Shown here: positions 4,644 to 20,130 of the stretch, piece by piece
Layout of the letters: the number at the start of each line of letters is the position of its first letter
How positions within the stretch are numbered: the first letter of the stretch is position 1
Virus record (IMG/VR): IMGVR_UViG_3300027320_000066
Location: 1-20,295 of that record
Source of the DNA: a virus
Direction: 5' to 3' (one strand)
Length of the DNA: 20,295 nucleotides
The notes under the pieces: generated by a model
The model's input: the letters and a program-made list of their open reading frames with translations, nothing else
Told to the model about the DNA's origin: nothing
Database searches by the model: none
Translations under genes and position numbers: made by a program

Positions 4644-4897
4644 AAAGCAAGATGTAAGATTTTACCCTAATTATAAAGAACTTAATGATATGAGAATTTG
4701 CCATCAAAATAATTTGGCTTATGTTGTTGTACCAACAAAAAAAAAATAAATACTGGATTAGCAAGTACAGTTTAAAAGATTTATATACGGTAATTTATTT
4801 AGAAGAAAATAAGGTTAGAAAAGAATTTAGCCAATTTGAAGCTGACAAAAAGATAATGGAACTTTACACACAACACTCAAAAAGATTTAAAAAATGA
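4636..4897 (+). pseudogene. Small phage protein interrupted by a frame change at an A10 tract
   Basis: A reading frame opens at ATG 4636 and runs for 37 residues to a TAA at 4747, directly after ten A (4737-4746). From the A-tract, the frame one base later is open to TGA 4895-4897 and codes for a well-formed continuation (NKYWISKYSLKDLYTV, then LEENKVRKEF). That TGA overlaps the next ATG as ATGA, the same coupling used by the real genes around it. Removing one A would join both parts into one protein of about 86 residues (AYVVVPTKKNKYWISKYS across the joint). Alternatively the downstream part is a separate 58-residue gene from ATG 4721, or slippage on the A-tract makes the fusion. The family is not recognised. 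Confidence 0.55.
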
Positions 4898-8659: not shown

Positions 8660-9394
8660 ATGTACTATTATATTTACCATATAAAAGGAGTAAAAGTAGG
8701 TTGCACTACTGATTTAAAAAAAAGAGTTGAATTAGTTCAAGGATTTAAAGACTACGAAGTATTATATAAAACTAGAGATATATTAAATGCTTCAATAGCT
8801 GAGTTATATTATCAAAACATATTCAAATACAAATTAGATAAAAATTCATATTTAAAATTAACACAAAAAAAAATGCTACACATCACTGAAAGAACAATTA
8901 CATTTAGAAATACTAATGATAGTAAGTTTATTGGATATAAATTTCCACAAATAATAGAGTTACTTGATGGAACTCATATTGAATTAAATGATCAAACAAT
9001 AGAATGGATATTAAATAACAATAGTGAATCACATCGAAATAAAGAAAGATTTGTTTATATACAAGCTTTATTGAATTACGTGAATTCAAGTAAAACAAAT
9101 GAATTAGATATATTTAAGAACATAAGAGAATGGGCATCTAATAAAGGTATATTTGAAAAAGGCGATGTTAAAACTCAGTACATTAAATTACAAGAAGAAG
9201 CTGGTGAATTAGCTAAAGCATTATTAACTAATGATAAAGAAGAGATTATAGATGCTATTGGAGATTGTGTAGTTGTGTTGACTAATTTATCTAAGTTAGC
9301 TGGTTATAATATTGAAGACTGTATTTTGTCTGCTTATAATGTTATTTCTAAACGCACTGGCAAAATGGAAAACGGAACATTTAAAAAAGATTAA
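8660..9394 (+). CDS. GIY-YIG-like domain fused to a MazG-type nucleotide pyrophosphohydrolase
   Basis: A 244-residue, probably two-domain protein. Residues 1-55 resemble a minimal GIY-YIG nuclease: YYIYHIKG, VKVGCTTDLKKR with R22, and a helix with E48 (ASIAELYYQ), the layout of the T5orf172-like subtype. Residues about 150-240 resemble the MazG/all-alpha NTP pyrophosphohydrolases: KLQEEAGELAKAL (E179, E180, E183), then EEIIDAIGD (D198, D202) and a second helix. The middle (60-145) is unassigned. The MazG part could remove canonical dNTPs, which fits the modified-nucleotide genes upstream. The GIY-YIG part is the weaker call. The stop overlaps the next ATG. Confidence 0.75.
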   Translation: MYYYIYHIKGVKVGCTTDLKKRVELVQGFKDYEVLYKTRDILNASIAELYYQNIFKYKLDKNSYLKLTQKKMLHITERTITFRNTNDSKFIGYKFPQIIELLDGTHIELNDQTIEWILNNNSESHRNKERFVYIQALLNYVNSSKTNELDIFKNIREWASNKGIFEKGDVKTQYIKLQEEAGELAKALLTNDKEEIIDAIGDCVVVLTNLSKLAGYNIEDCILSAYNVISKRTGKMENGTFKKD

Positions 9395-10532: not shown

Positions 10533-10838
10533 ATGGAAGATAGAAGAAAATTTAACGGTGGTAATAAAAACGCAGGCCGTAAATCAAAAGTAGAAGAAGA
10601 AAAAGTAAACAACATTTTTCTAAAAGCATTAGGTGAACTTTACAATAAAGAAACTGAAGAAGAAACAAAGATTGAATTTGTTAAAACTACTTTGATGGAT
10701 TCACAACGTGGGCAGTTGTTTATAGCTGAACACATATTCGGCAAACCAAAAGAAATTATAGAAGCTACACACAACGTAAATGATTTTAATATAAAAGACA
10801 TCTTCAAAGTTGGGAATAGCAATAAATCAGAAATATAA
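10533..10838 (+). CDS. terS: Terminase small subunit
   Basis: A 101-residue protein. The N-terminal FNGGNKNAGRKSK is the GG..GAGRKSK motif common at the start of phage terminase small subunits. It is followed by helices (VNNIFLKALGELYNK, EFVKTTLMDSQRGQLFIAEH) and FGKPKE, also typical. It is short compared with most TerS proteins. It overlaps the large subunit gene by 29 nt, the standard order. The role is recognition of phage DNA and regulation of the packaging motor. Confidence 0.82.
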   Translation: MEDRRKFNGGNKNAGRKSKVEEEKVNNIFLKALGELYNKETEEETKIEFVKTTLMDSQRGQLFIAEHIFGKPKEIIEATHNVNDFNIKDIFKVGNSNKSEI

Positions 10839-12018
10839 TTTACTTGGTTCAGATAGTAGATACTTTGTAATAACAGGTGGAAGGGGTTCAGGGAAATCAT
10901 ATTCTTTGAACTCATTTCTATTATTACTTACTTATGAATCAGGACACGTTATATTATTTACAAGATATACTTTAACATCAGCAAACATTTCTATTATACC
11001 AGAGTTTATAGACAAGATTGATAGGGCTAATCTAAGCAACGATTTTTATATAACTAAGGATGAAATAGTAAATCTTAAAACAGGGTCTAAGATTCTATTT
11101 AAGGGTATCAAGACAAGTAGTGGTGTACAAACAGCATCTTTAAAATCATTAGCTGGAGTTACTACTTGGGTATTAGATGAAGCAGAAGAACTAACAGATG
11201 AAGAAACATTTGAAAAGATTGATTTTAGTATAAGAACAAAAGGAATACACAATAGAGTTTTATTAGTATTAAATCCTGCAACAAAAGAACACTTCATTTA
11301 TAAAAAGTTCTTTGAAGATAAAGGAGTACAAGCAGGAAGCAATTTAATAAAAGGTGATACTACATACATACACACTACATACTTAGATAACATAGAAAAT
11401 CTATCTGAGTCTTTCATAAGTCAAGTAGAAAACATAAAAAAGCGTAGACCAGAAAAGTATAAACATCAAATATTAGGTGGTTGGTTAGACAAAGCAGAAG
11501 GAGTTATATTTACTAATTGGACAATAGGCGAATACAAACAAATAGGTAAATCTATCTTTGGTCAAGATTACGGATTTGCAGCAGATGAATCAACACTATT
11601 AGAATGTAATATAGACACATCTAACAAACGTATTTATATCAATGAAAGGTTTTACTTAAAAGGTTTAACAACGTCTCAGATATACAGTTTAAACAAGCAG
11701 CACGCAAACGATGCGTTAATAGTTGCTGATTCAGCAGAACCAAGATTAATTAGTGAACTACAAACATTAGGTTTAAATATTGTACCCGCAGTTAAAGGGC
11801 CTGATTCAGTAACGTATGGTATTAGCATTTTACAAGATTACGATTTGATAGTATCACCTGAATCTATTAATTTAATCAGGGAACTAAATAACTACTGTTG
11901 GTTAGAAAAGAAATCTAAAACTCCACAAGATGCGCACAACCATTTACTTGACCCATTACGTTATTGCGTTACCTACCAATTAGAAAATAAAAACAAGGGT
12001 AATTACTTTGTTTATTAA
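10810..12018 (+). CDS. terL: Terminase large subunit (PBSX/Terminase_3 type)
   Basis: A 402-residue packaging motor. ATPase domain: Walker A GGRGSGKS (23-30), Walker B WVLDEAEEL (120-128, D123/E124), and coupling motif LNPATKE (154-160). The nuclease domain has the RNase-H-like acidic residues D253 in GQDYGF, D307 in ADSAEP and D381 in DPLRY. The start is TTG at 10810: the frame is closed by TAA at 10792 and offers no ATG between there and the P-loop, while translation from TTG gives the usual GIAINQKYN opening. The 29-nt overlap with terS suggests coupled translation. Confidence 0.95.
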   Translation: MGIAINQKYNLLGSDSRYFVITGGRGSGKSYSLNSFLLLLTYESGHVILFTRYTLTSANISIIPEFIDKIDRANLSNDFYITKDEIVNLKTGSKILFKGIKTSSGVQTASLKSLAGVTTWVLDEAEELTDEETFEKIDFSIRTKGIHNRVLLVLNPATKEHFIYKKFFEDKGVQAGSNLIKGDTTYIHTTYLDNIENLSESFISQVENIKKRRPEKYKHQILGGWLDKAEGVIFTNWTIGEYKQIGKSIFGQDYGFAADESTLLECNIDTSNKRIYINERFYLKGLTTSQIYSLNKQHANDALIVADSAEPRLISELQTLGLNIVPAVKGPDSVTYGISILQDYDLIVSPESINLIRELNNYCWLEKKSKTPQDAHNHLLDPLRYCVTYQLENKNKGNYFVY

Positions 12019-12514: not shown

Positions 12515-12604
12515 AGTCAGTTGGTGTAAGTGGGAATAAATACCACCATAGGGAAACATATTGATTAAGTTCAATAGATACAGGTTCGAATCCTGTACTG
12601 ACTT
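12515..12604 (+). tRNA. Atypical tRNA-like element, anticodon arm not canonical
   Basis: Clear tRNA parts: a perfect 7-bp acceptor stem AGTCAGT (12515-12521) with ACTGACT (12597-12603); T8 and G9; a D-stem GTGT/ATAC (12524-27/12540-43, one G.T pair) with D-loop AAGTGGGAATAA; and a perfect T-arm ACAGG-TTCGAAT-CCTGT (12580-12596). CCA is not encoded. The 36 nt between D- and T-arms (12544-12579) do not give a normal anticodon arm. The only good hairpin is TATTG (12559-63) with CAATA (12572-76), enclosing an 8-nt loop ATTAAGTT and preceded by 15 extra nt. It could be a degenerate tRNA, a tRNA with an insertion, or a tRNA mimic. No amino acid is assigned. Confidence 0.55.
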
Positions 12605-12730: not shown

Positions 12731-13408
12731 ATGAAGTTAGAAATTTCTATACCTACATCTTTAAAAGAAATAACATTAGAACAATACCAAAGATTTACAA
12801 GTATAGCTAAATCAAATCCTGAAGGTGATTTTTTGCAGCACAAGATGATTGAAATATTTTGTAATGTTTCACTAAAAGAAATATCACTAATGAAGTTAAA
12901 GGATATTAACGCAATAACAAATAAGTTAGGCGAAATGTTCAATAACAACTATCCATTAATTCAAACATTTAAACACAATGGTTTAGAGTTTGGTTTTATT
13001 CCTAATTTAGACGAAATCAGTTTAGGAGAATATACCGATTTAGAAACATATATTTCTGATTGGGATAATATGCACAAAGCAATGGCAGTTTTATACAGAC
13101 CTGTAATAAACAAGCTAAACAAGAAATACCTAATAGAAGAATACAAAGGTTCAGCAGAATATGCAGAAGCAATGTTGCAAATGCCTTTAGATGTAGCTTT
13201 AGGTGCAATGGTTTTTTTTTATCATTTAGGCAACGCATTGTTGATGTCTACCCTGAATTATTTGGAGAAGGACAAAGCTCTGATGGATTTAGCCGAGAAG
13301 CACAGTTTGGACGCGAATGGAGTTGGTATAGTTCCTACTATGGTCTTGCTCAGGGAGACATTAGAAGATTTGATGAAATTTCAAAACTTCGGCTTACAAC
13401 CTGTTTAA
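12731..13408 (+). CDS. Tail-module protein, zero-frame product (225 aa), candidate tail assembly chaperone
   Basis: First gene of the tail operon. The N-terminal 160 residues look well conserved (IPTSLKEITLEQYQRF, then FGFIPNLDEISLGEYTDLET at about 87-106, a pattern I associate with Bacteroidetes phage structural-module proteins). The codon string GTT TTT TTT TAT at 13211-13222 is a T9 tract where the -1 frame becomes open. After it the zero frame continues 62 codons but switches to TTG, CTG, GAG and GAC codons that are otherwise rare here. This suggests that the overlapping -1 frame imposes the main constraint. The function as a chaperone is inferred from the frameshift layout; the gene is not directly next to the tape measure as in lambda. 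Confidence 0.78.
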   Translation: MKLEISIPTSLKEITLEQYQRFTSIAKSNPEGDFLQHKMIEIFCNVSLKEISLMKLKDINAITNKLGEMFNNNYPLIQTFKHNGLEFGFIPNLDEISLGEYTDLETYISDWDNMHKAMAVLYRPVINKLNKKYLIEEYKGSAEYAEAMLQMPLDVALGAMVFFYHLGNALLMSTLNYLEKDKALMDLAEKHSLDANGVGIVPTMVLLRETLEDLMKFQNFGLQPV

Positions 13409-13482
13409 CATATTTAACATTTGAAAAAGAAAAAAACGAATTAGAAGCACAACAACTAAGAAGAAATGAAAACATATTATAA
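12731..13482 (+). CDS. Predicted -1 frameshift fusion product (about 250 aa)
   Basis: Reading -1 at T_TTT_TTT (13213-13219) adds 87 residues ending at TAA 13480-13482. That frame has no ATG, GTG or TTG from its last upstream stop (13066) to its end, so it can only be made by frameshifting or by an indel. Its protein is convincing: FGREWSWYSSYYGLAQGDIR followed by LTTCLTYLTFEKEKNELEAQ. The W-x-WY...LA.GD pattern recalls the C-terminal parts of frameshifted tail assembly chaperones. Its codons (GAA, GGA, GAT, AGA) match the genome better than those of the zero frame. It overlaps the next gene by 17 nt, like other real genes here. A missing T in the sequence would give the same picture. Confidence 0.65.
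13213..13219 (+). other. Candidate -1 ribosomal frameshift site (T-tract)
   Basis: Nine T (13212-13220) within GTT TTT TTT TAT provide the slippery heptamer T_TTT_TTT in the correct phase for a -1 shift. A weak hairpin CAAC-GCATT-GTTG (13231-13243) starts 10 nt downstream; no strong stimulatory structure is obvious. Transcriptional slippage on T9 adding one T would have the same result. Confidence 0.6.
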
Positions 13483-13927
13483 AGTTACAGAAGCACTAAG
13501 AGATTCACTACTACAAGATGGTATAGTAAACAACTGTTCTACAGGTGATATATTCAACGTAGATTTAAACAAGCGTACTATATTCCCTTTAGCACACGTT
13601 ATTGTAAATAGTGTAGCAGAATCAGCAAGTGGTAATACAAACCTATTTAATGTTTCTGTATTGCTTATGGATGTTTGCGATATTTCACCGGATGAATCTA
13701 CTGATTTATGGTTAGATAACGATAACGAGCAGGATATATTTAACACGCAATTTGAAGTAGGTAAAAGATTTGTTGAATCAATGCGTAGAGGCGATTTATA
13801 CACCTTAGGATTTCAATTAAATGGCAATGCAAATTACGAAGCGTTTAGTGATAGATTCGAAAACAAGTTAGTAGGTTGGACAATTACATTTAACGTAGAA
13901 GCAGCAAACGATACAACTATCTGTTAA
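13466..13927 (+). CDS. Putative tail completion/terminator protein (153 aa)
   Basis: A 153-residue protein of the size of tail terminators, beginning with a helix (YYKVTEALRDSLLQDGIVNN) and continuing with strands (IFPLAHVIVNSVAES, NLFNVSVLLMDVCDIS, LVGWTITFNVEA). The build resembles small tail-completion proteins that have an N-terminal helix with a VN or VT...GDI turn and a beta sheet. Between the frameshift gene and the HK97 gp10-like gene it is in the expected place for a connector or tail-terminator protein. The assignment is by length, pattern and position, not by clear homology. It is coupled to the next gene (TAATG). Confidence 0.6.
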   Translation: MKTYYKVTEALRDSLLQDGIVNNCSTGDIFNVDLNKRTIFPLAHVIVNSVAESASGNTNLFNVSVLLMDVCDISPDESTDLWLDNDNEQDIFNTQFEVGKRFVESMRRGDLYTLGFQLNGNANYEAFSDRFENKLVGWTITFNVEAANDTTIC

Positions 13928-17941: not shown

Positions 17942-18083
17942 ACAAATATTAGAACTTCTGCAATGCACAGAGCATTACGGACAAAGCGAATTAATAGAAA
18001 TTGCTAAAGGTAAATACGAACTACCTAAAACATTTAAAAAAGGATTTACACAACTTAAAAGGGAATTAAAATGTCTGAAATAA
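17934..18083 (+). CDS. Small hypothetical protein linking the tail gene and tape measure (49 aa)
   Basis: This short frame overlaps the large tail gene by 8 nt and the tape measure by 13 nt, filling the gap exactly. Helical and basic: LKQILELLQCTEHYGQSELI, then FKKGFTQLKRELK. The position directly before the tape measure is that of tail assembly chaperones in many siphoviruses, but at 49 residues this is too small for a known one. No frameshift signal is seen here. Confidence 0.62.
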   Translation: MLKQILELLQCTEHYGQSELIEIAKGKYELPKTFKKGFTQLKRELKCLK

Positions 18084-19933
18084 AGGTAATTGAATTACAA
18101 GTAAAAACAAACTTAGACAATGCTAATTCAGGTCTTGGAAGGTTTAAAACAGGATTAAAAGAAGTAAGTAACCAAGCTAAAGAAACTACGCAAAGTGTTA
18201 CAGGAATGTCTAAAGTTGAAGGCACTATTAACGCTATTGGTGATGGTGTAGGCAAACTAAATCCTGCGTTTGGTGCAGCAGTAAAAGGTGCAAATGGTTT
18301 AATACTTAAAATGTGGGAAATGGTCGCCAACCCTATTGGCGCTATTTTAGCAGGTATTGTTATTACTGCTAAATTTCTATATGAGGCTTTTCAAAGTAGT
18401 GTAGCAGGTGGTAAAGAATTAAAAACAATTTTTGCAGGAATTAGCGCAGTTGGTACACAAGTAAAAGATGCTTTATTTGGCTTAGGCAGGGCATTAATAA
18501 ACGTATATACTGCGGCTTATAAATTCATTACTTTAGATTTTGCAGGTGCAATGGAAAGTATGAAAGATGCGAATAAAGAAGCTACAGAATCTTTTAAACA
18601 ATTAGGTAATGCTGCTGATGGAACTACATTTAAAATTATTAAGAACTTAGAAAAACAACAACAAGCAAACGATAAAGCACGAAAAGTACAAGCGGTAGTA
18701 CAATCTGAAACAAATAAATTACTTGTACAATCACGTGAAATATTAACTGATGAAACTGCTTCAATAGCTGCAAAGAAAAAGGCATTAGAAGAAGTAACAA
18801 AAGCAGAAAAAGAATCAAGTAAAGAAAAAGTAAGAATTGCAGCAGAAGATTTGCGTATATTAAAAGAAAAAGCAGTAGCATTAGGTGGCGAAGCAGAAAA
18901 GAAAATGAAAGGTGAAATTCGTGAAGCTACTATAGCTTTAAACGAAGCAGAAACTGAAAATGCAATGACAGGTATTAAGTTGAATAAACAACGTAAAATG
19001 TTATTGCGCCAAGAATCAGCAGATGCAAAAGCAGCAGCCGATGCAAGAATAGAACAATTAAAAATACAAGAAGAAGCTGAAAAAAAGGCTTACGATGAAA
19101 GACAAAAAAGAGCAAGTGATTTAGGAAAAGATGCGGAATCAAGATATGATGCTTTATTAAAAGCAGAATCAGATGCACGTGAAAGAAATCGCTTGGCTTT
19201 AATGACAGACCAAGAAAAAGATTTAGAATTAATAAATCAAAAATACGATACGCAAATACAAAAAGCTAAAGAAGCAGGTATTTCAACTGTTGCATTAGAA
19301 ACTGCTAAATTAAATGAACTAAATGATGTTAATTTAAAATATCAAAAAATAACTTATGATGCAGAAGAAGAAAATTCAAAGAAAAAAATAGCAAATGCAA
19401 AAGCAGAAGCTGATGCAAAAAAAGCTATTCAAGATGCTTCATTTTCGGTTGCTGAAGGTGGAATAGGTTTAATTAAAAATTTATTTGAAAAAAATAAAGG
19501 TATTCAAAAAGCAGCTATTATAGCAGAAAACGCAATAGGTATAGCGAAAATTTTAATTAATACAAATGCCGCAAATGCTGCAGCTAATTTAAAATATGCT
19601 TTAGTTCCCGGTGGTCAGGCTTTAGCAGCAACTGAAATAGCTTTAAATAAAGTTAGTGCAGGTATAGGTATTGCTTCTTCTGTTTTAGCAACAACAAAAG
19701 CATTAAGCGCTTTAGGTGGTGGTGGAGCAGGTGGTGGTAATGCACCAAGCGGGACAGCAAGTAGTGGTAATGCTCCGCAATTTAACGTAGTAGGTGCTAC
19801 AGGTGTAAATCAATTGGCAGGTGCAATTAGCAATAGAGAACAACAACCTGTCCAAGCGTATGTAGTAGCAAATAACGTAACTACTGCGCAAGGTTTAGAT
19901 AGAAACATAATTCGTTCAGCTACATTAGGATAA
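18071..19933 (+). CDS. Tail tape measure protein
   Basis: A 620-residue protein with tape-measure architecture. There is an N-terminal helical part (VKTNLDNANSGLGRFKTGLK), a hydrophobic region at about 82-107 (WEMVANPIGAILAGIVITAK), and a long charged Ala/Lys/Glu coiled coil (about 195-455). A second hydrophobic stretch follows at about 458-540 (AAIIAENAIGIAKILI; VSAGIGIASSVLATTKALSA), then a Gly-rich flexible segment near 546-555 and a Gln/Asn-rich C-terminus. By the usual 0.15 nm per residue, the tail would be roughly 90 nm, indicating a siphovirus-like tail. No peptidase or lytic domain is visible. It ends the tail module; a 197-nt spacer follows. Confidence 0.88.
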   Translation: MSEIKVIELQVKTNLDNANSGLGRFKTGLKEVSNQAKETTQSVTGMSKVEGTINAIGDGVGKLNPAFGAAVKGANGLILKMWEMVANPIGAILAGIVITAKFLYEAFQSSVAGGKELKTIFAGISAVGTQVKDALFGLGRALINVYTAAYKFITLDFAGAMESMKDANKEATESFKQLGNAADGTTFKIIKNLEKQQQANDKARKVQAVVQSETNKLLVQSREILTDETASIAAKKKALEEVTKAEKESSKEKVRIAAEDLRILKEKAVALGGEAEKKMKGEIREATIALNEAETENAMTGIKLNKQRKMLLRQESADAKAAADARIEQLKIQEEAEKKAYDERQKRASDLGKDAESRYDALLKAESDARERNRLALMTDQEKDLELINQKYDTQIQKAKEAGISTVALETAKLNELNDVNLKYQKITYDAEEENSKKKIANAKAEADAKKAIQDASFSVAEGGIGLIKNLFEKNKGIQKAAIIAENAIGIAKILINTNAANAAANLKYALVPGGQALAATEIALNKVSAGIGIASSVLATTKALSALGGGGAGGGNAPSGTASSGNAPQFNVVGATGVNQLAGAISNREQQPVQAYVVANNVTTAQGLDRNIIRSATLG

Positions 19934-20130
19934 ATAAAAACTATTAAAAAACATATTACTATAAATAAAAACTTGCGCTGTTAAGTATTGATTTTAAAGG
20001 GATTTTTAATTTAATAAACAAACTAAAAAAAAACAACAGGTAATATATAAAATAAATAAAGTGCCTTAAAACGCAAAAAAACGCTATTTAAAACAAAATC
20101 AATAAAATTTAATTTTAAAATAAAAACAAA
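19934..20130. other. Non-coding spacer between tape measure and head gene, with an inverted repeat
   Basis: A 197-nt A-rich gap without a convincing reading frame. It contains an interrupted inverted repeat: TTGCG (19973-77) + TTAAG (19981-85) opposite CTTAA (20065-69) + CGCAA (20072-76), with 79 nt between the arms. No GTTAAA pair, TAnnTTTG box or T-tailed terminator hairpin was found. It probably holds the leader and promoter of the head operon, possibly one read by the phage sigma factor. Confidence 0.4.

Follow-up and report, generated by a model that had tools for sequence, protein, structure and literature searches.

A conserved run of at least nine T residues in a tail-assembly-chaperone-like gene of Bacteroidetes viruses appears to give rise to two proteins with different C-terminal ends

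In this study, we asked how many proteins are made from a gene in the virus record IMGVR_UViG_3300027320_000066 whose reading frame crosses a run of nine T residues, and at which step of gene expression a second product could arise. The window, by which we mean the whole stretch of DNA analysed, comprises 20,295 nt of this record. The gene lies on the plus strand at 12731–13408 and encodes 225 aa in the zero frame, where the T9 run (13212–13220) is read within the codons GTT TTT TTT TAT. The initial annotation had placed the run at these positions in a phase that allows a −1 slip on T_TTT_TTT, and this heptamer is indeed found in phase at 13213–13219. It had also described a −1 frame of 87 codons without a start of its own, and in the window sequence this frame is open from 13069, after a stop at 13066, to a TAA at 13480–13482, with no ATG, GTG or TTG start in the open frame (13066–13482). 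A −1 slip after TTT TTT would join zero-frame codons 1–163 to the 87 codons of the extension (13219–13482 on the plus strand, including the TAA), resulting in a 250-aa long form. The stretch common to both frames measures approximately 187 nt, close to the 190 nt first estimated; 62 zero-frame codons (13220–13405, plus strand) are here also read in the −1 frame, and the zero frame ends with a TAA at 13406–13408. In the +1 frame a TAG is located two codons past the run (13227–13229), which would terminate translation of mRNAs lacking one U. Other homopolymers of 9–10 nt in the window are T9 at 198–206, A10 at 4737–4746 and A9 at 8865–8873 and 20025–20033.

To compare the locus with its relatives, we analysed 319 loci, represented by 149 sequences with less than 90% DNA identity to each other; loci whose stored DNA ended before the slip site are excluded from this number. 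The loci came from five viral scans and from two genome MAGs (Winogradskyella sp. and a Bacteroidetes bacterium). The IMG/VR scan with the 250-residue product gave 80 loci. For further scans we used the N-domain alone from a divergent member, and phage P12024S and a Bacteroidetes MAG sequence, the latter two with N-domain seed patterns; one more scan supplied the P12024-like loci. Altogether, the scan seeds lay mostly within the N-domain. An unbroken T run is present at the same place at every one of the 319 loci, with nine T at 281, ten at 36 and 12 at two of them; runs of seven or eight T were not found at any of these slip sites. Behind the run the −1 frame is open for approximately 77–90 codons. 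Fused or closed frames, or other slippery sequences in place of the run, were found at none of the 319 loci, and the dual stretch is free of stops in either frame, which is the opposite of what would have spoken against the initial annotation. The run, both open frames and, as described below, selection on both peptides are thus conserved among the homologues. Runs of nine or more T are otherwise rare, with 25 others in 942 kb (plus strand), four of which are inside ORFs. Based on these comparisons, it appears that one gene in Bacteroidetes viruses makes two proteins with different ends through a slip at a T run.

The same data argue against a trivial explanation, namely that the T9 is a sequencing error or the gene is decayed and that the true run is a T10 within a single continuous frame. 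Homopolymers are error-prone, and in some distant fold relatives both domains seemingly reside in one protein; however, at least nine T with the same two-frame layout are present in all 319 contigs and in the GenBank phages P12024S and P12024L, and the zero frame is free of stops and under selection. With 319 concordant loci and selection on the zero frame, we regard this explanation as refuted for practical purposes and give it only a negligible chance.

The initial annotation had considered it unusual that the zero frame stays open up to 13408. When the window was resampled from its −1 protein with the local codon usage, the zero frame was open in 0/500 and 0/400 sequences, with 4.2 stops expected. 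Across the family, the zero frame continues past the run for 16–83 codons (45–83 codons in 135 of 148 representatives and 16–40 in the rest). It has no stops in 8485 dual codons, compared with 542 in the 3676 codons (14.7%) between the zero-frame stop and the −1 stop; since an ORF ends at its first stop, the former count has to be zero, and its weight rests on the length reached. Synonymous resampling of the −1 protein gave an expected 3.1 zero-frame stops per sequence across the family and left the zero frame open in 2.5% of cases on average, and the reverse test gave 4.4 stops per sequence and an open frame in 0.9%. The openness of the zero frame is therefore not due to chance, and the window fits a family in which about 60 codons are truly dual-coding. 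A further remark, that the codon usage looked as if shaped by the overlapping frame, needs to be amended in its detail. A shift in leucine codons is real across the family; however, it consists of a loss of TTA (27% of leucine codons in the dual stretch as against 52% before it and 60% beyond the zero-frame stop) and a preference for CTT and CTC (CTC: 21, 3 and 1%, respectively) and not of a gain of TTG or CTG. Counted in −1 codons, change is slowed at position 3 and raised at position 1, which is the wobble position of the zero frame.

Could the zero frame be kept open after the run only to hold ribosomes on the mRNA near the next gene, with the long −1 product being the one that matters? AlphaFold2 has low confidence in the zero-frame tail (pLDDT below 50 from residue 189), which moreover ranges between 16 and 83 codons in length; both findings would be consistent with such a role. 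Several clades (L242–L249, L253–L267, L291, L310, L325 and L329) keep T9 but have only approximately 16–40 zero-frame codons past the run, and the dual-coded tail has therefore been gained or lost more than once. However, in each of three subgroups the similarity of the zero-frame peptides exceeded that of all 300 synonymous-relabelled nulls, which ignore stops, whereas the matched control, 60 codons upstream treated in the same way, equalled its null and had no excess. Since the similarity exceeds the nulls only after the run, the zero-frame tail behaves as a constrained peptide and we consider ribosome retention as its sole purpose unlikely. As judged by these tests, protein-level selection acts in both frames on the 62 codons that follow the run.

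The −1 frame also appears to be part of the normal layout of the operon. An ATGA or TAATG overlap between its stop and the start of the next gene is seen in 89 of 102 representatives, and in the window the next ORF (13466–13927, plus strand, 153 aa) shares a longer stretch of 17 nt with the end of the −1 frame and not with that of the zero frame. When the short form and the −1 domain were folded separately with AlphaFold2, the −1 domain, for which the alignment was used without one GenBank phage row, was predicted to consist of helices (pLDDT 81.6).

What is the likely function of these proteins? The short form matches phrog_32199 (E=1.3e-19), a family of unknown function, and no match was obtained in Pfam, in the PDB (by sequence or by fold, using the short form) or among named PHROGs. 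Among its high-probability fold matches to BFVD models, the functional name that appears is 'tail assembly chaperone', for example A0A8S5V8Z8 (probability 1.00, E=0.016, TM-scores 0.41/0.46). Fold and position suggest that a tail-chaperone-like gene heads the tail module, as the initial annotation had proposed, and two products in a −1 relation with a common N-domain are the predicted architecture at all 319 loci. However, the gene is not located directly upstream of the tape measure gene, which had already been pointed out; the probable tape measure gene (18071–19933, plus strand; assigned by position and a weak match to phrog_1538, E=0.0059) begins 4.6 kb downstream, in line with the distance of about 5 kb given before, and four genes lie in between. 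A similar spacing is seen in the contig of L006. The separation from the tape measure, which is unlike the situation in lambda, and the lack of Pfam and PDB matches would also fit with a tail or neck protein of a different kind that has alternative C-termini. This seems improbable to us, as the functionally named high-probability fold matches are tail assembly chaperones, the gene is located in the tail module and its two C-terminal forms are in a −1 relation; a role as a tail assembly chaperone of the lambda G/GT type, which we infer from fold and position, is quite likely. The N-domain and the −1 domain are both matched by some BFVD proteins of approximately 226–267 residues, and, going by these models, distant fold relatives seem to encode within a single frame the fusion that slippage would produce here. 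These one-protein relatives do not contradict slippage in the T9 family. A further fold relative, gp10 of Flavobacterium phage 6H (L252, 10020–10940), is without T9 and its downstream domain seemingly lies in other frames.

We propose the following model for the synthesis of a short (G-like) and a long form of a tail-assembly-chaperone-like protein with 163 N-terminal residues in common. The RNA polymerase would slip at T9; most mRNAs would keep U9 and direct the synthesis of the 225-aa short form, a fraction would gain one U and give rise to the 250-aa long form with a T-like domain, and translation of mRNAs that have lost one U would terminate within about three codons. A +1-frame stop is found no more than three codons after the run in 100 of 102 representatives and would end the products of a one-base loss, although a Phe-Arg/Lys motif of the −1 frame accounts for much of this conservation. 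It has been reported that bacterial polymerases slip at Tn with n>8 (PMC3711429), that slippage is efficient at nine A or T (PMC5009743) and that the RNA:DNA hybrid has a length of nine (PMC5574713). A homopolymer of this kind with a conserved length (9, 10 or 12 T) is present at 319/319 loci. Nine T is not a sharp limit, however, since the E. coli polymerase slips at 5–10% already at T7/T8 (PMC6260861).

The same two products and the same dual coding could also result from programmed −1 ribosomal frameshifting with tandem tRNA-Phe on T_TTT_TTT as in lambda G/GT, which was the mode the initial annotation had in mind. Ribosomal slippage is possible because every run of nine contains an in-phase T_TTT_TTT, and this heptamer is in phase at all 319 loci; furthermore, known G/GT genes elsewhere among phages rely on −1 ribosomal frameshifting (PMC5009743). 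In some marine members (L063 and 18 loci of one scan, e.g. L141 and L142), a classical heptamer T_TTA_AAC is present four codons past the run, which possibly provides a second or replacement shift site and would again fit with the ribosome as the slipping machine. However, depending on the codon phase of the run, an in-phase heptamer requires seven, eight or nine T, so that in two of three phases seven or eight would already be enough, and yet the floor is nine in all three phases. Extra T residues on the 5′ and 3′ sides compensate for each other: no run is shorter than nine where 8.1 would be expected, a result reached by 0 of 20,000 permutations. The permutation ignores kinship, and the safer figure is that, on the tree, run length was kept through at least 14 layout changes. 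The flanking T residues are partly forced because hydrophobic residues are conserved in both frames. In addition, all 149 representatives have TTT as the second Phe codon, whereas TTC accounts for 20% of the Phe codons in these genes; a TTC at this position would alter the protein in neither frame and retain a T_TTT_TTC heptamer, yet it was not found in any of the 149. Programmed −1 ribosomal frameshift sites are usually, though not universally, followed by a stimulatory stem-loop or pseudoknot. Downstream of the run no RNA structure was detected in 51 representatives (mean MFE z-scores of −0.17 for 80 nt and −0.20 for 50 nt, pseudoknots being outside the model), and U_UUU_UUU has been reported to be far less shift-prone than A_AAA_AAG in E. 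coli (PMC5009743). Because of the floor of nine in every phase, the lack of a TTC variant and the lack of a downstream structure, polymerase slippage is favoured; by our reading of the sequences it fits better and should be weighted about two to one over ribosomal shifting, to which we assign a real but clearly smaller chance. The −1 product proposed initially is hence supported by the comparisons, while the ribosomal mode fits less well with at least nine T in whatever phase and no structure downstream. On balance, we think it rather probable that polymerase slippage at T9 yields two chaperone-like forms with 62 codons selected in both frames; what we infer is that both forms are synthesised, that it is the polymerase and not the ribosome that slips and that this sets the product ratio.

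The only cultured relatives found with tblastn and divergent queries were the Nonlabens phages P12024S and P12024L. Their gp38/gp39 are homologous (approximately 29% identity) and have the same T9 and context with a −1 extension of 81 codons, but unlike in the window the zero-frame extension is only 25 codons. In P12024S, gp38 and gp39 (L082, 9001–9695) correspond to the two frames of this gene, with T9 as the junction; the annotation of both phages lists them as distinct hypothetical proteins. Gene-finding software would predict just one of the products, or else two separate hypothetical ORFs, as happened in P12024S.

Ribosomal frameshifting has a textbook example in the G/GT ratio. Lambda G/GT and the T9 family have in common a short form and a −1 extended long form with a shared N-domain, encoded in a siphophage tail module. 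The lambda gene adjoins the tape measure gene, whereas in the window four genes intervene, and in most members of the T9 family the short form has a dual-coded tail of approximately 50–80 codons. In lambda the ribosomal shift takes place near the end of G (PMC5009743), whereas a run of at least T9 is found in all members of the T9 family. With regard to the run, the family resembles Thermus dnaX, Shigella mxiE and spa13, where transcriptional realignment takes place on a slip run of at least nine A or T (PMC5009743). As in Thermus dnaX, a stop in another frame is close by, and as in spa13/spa32 the extension overlaps the start of the next gene (PMC5009743). The T9 family differs from these cases in that the gene belongs to a phage structural operon and both post-slip frames are long and selected, and in that slippage is here proposed from sequence. 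Relatives of lambda G/GT have reportedly been surveyed by Xu, Hendrix and Duda in 2004. In the accessible literature, outside which lie most subscription papers including the full text of Xu et al. (2004), we came across neither polymerase slippage nor long dual coding for a tail chaperone gene, and absence is thus not proven. We put it at slightly better than even that a widespread Bacteroidetes siphophage lineage sets the ratio of short to long chaperone by polymerase slippage at a strictly conserved stretch of nine or more T and that most members evolved a second, selected short-form C-terminus inside the −1 region. If the polymerase is used by a whole phage lineage, a different step of gene expression would serve the same need, and more than 300 homologues would provide a natural set for comparing slip-run length, layout and products. 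The dual-coded stretch is a clear tailed-phage example of two frames that are both selected at the protein level, which implies that the short form has more to it than truncation of the long one.

In the window, the terminase large subunit gene (10810–12018, plus strand; phrog_2, E=1.4e-43) is located upstream of the tail module, and a tRNA-Met (CAT) gene lies at 12515–12604 between the terminase and chaperone genes. In the contig of L006 the terminase gene is likewise upstream of the tail genes, and the head genes, a protease-like gene and a portal gene (phrog_33693, E=1.5e-94), are found downstream of them (L251, 5778–11330), giving a tail-before-head order.
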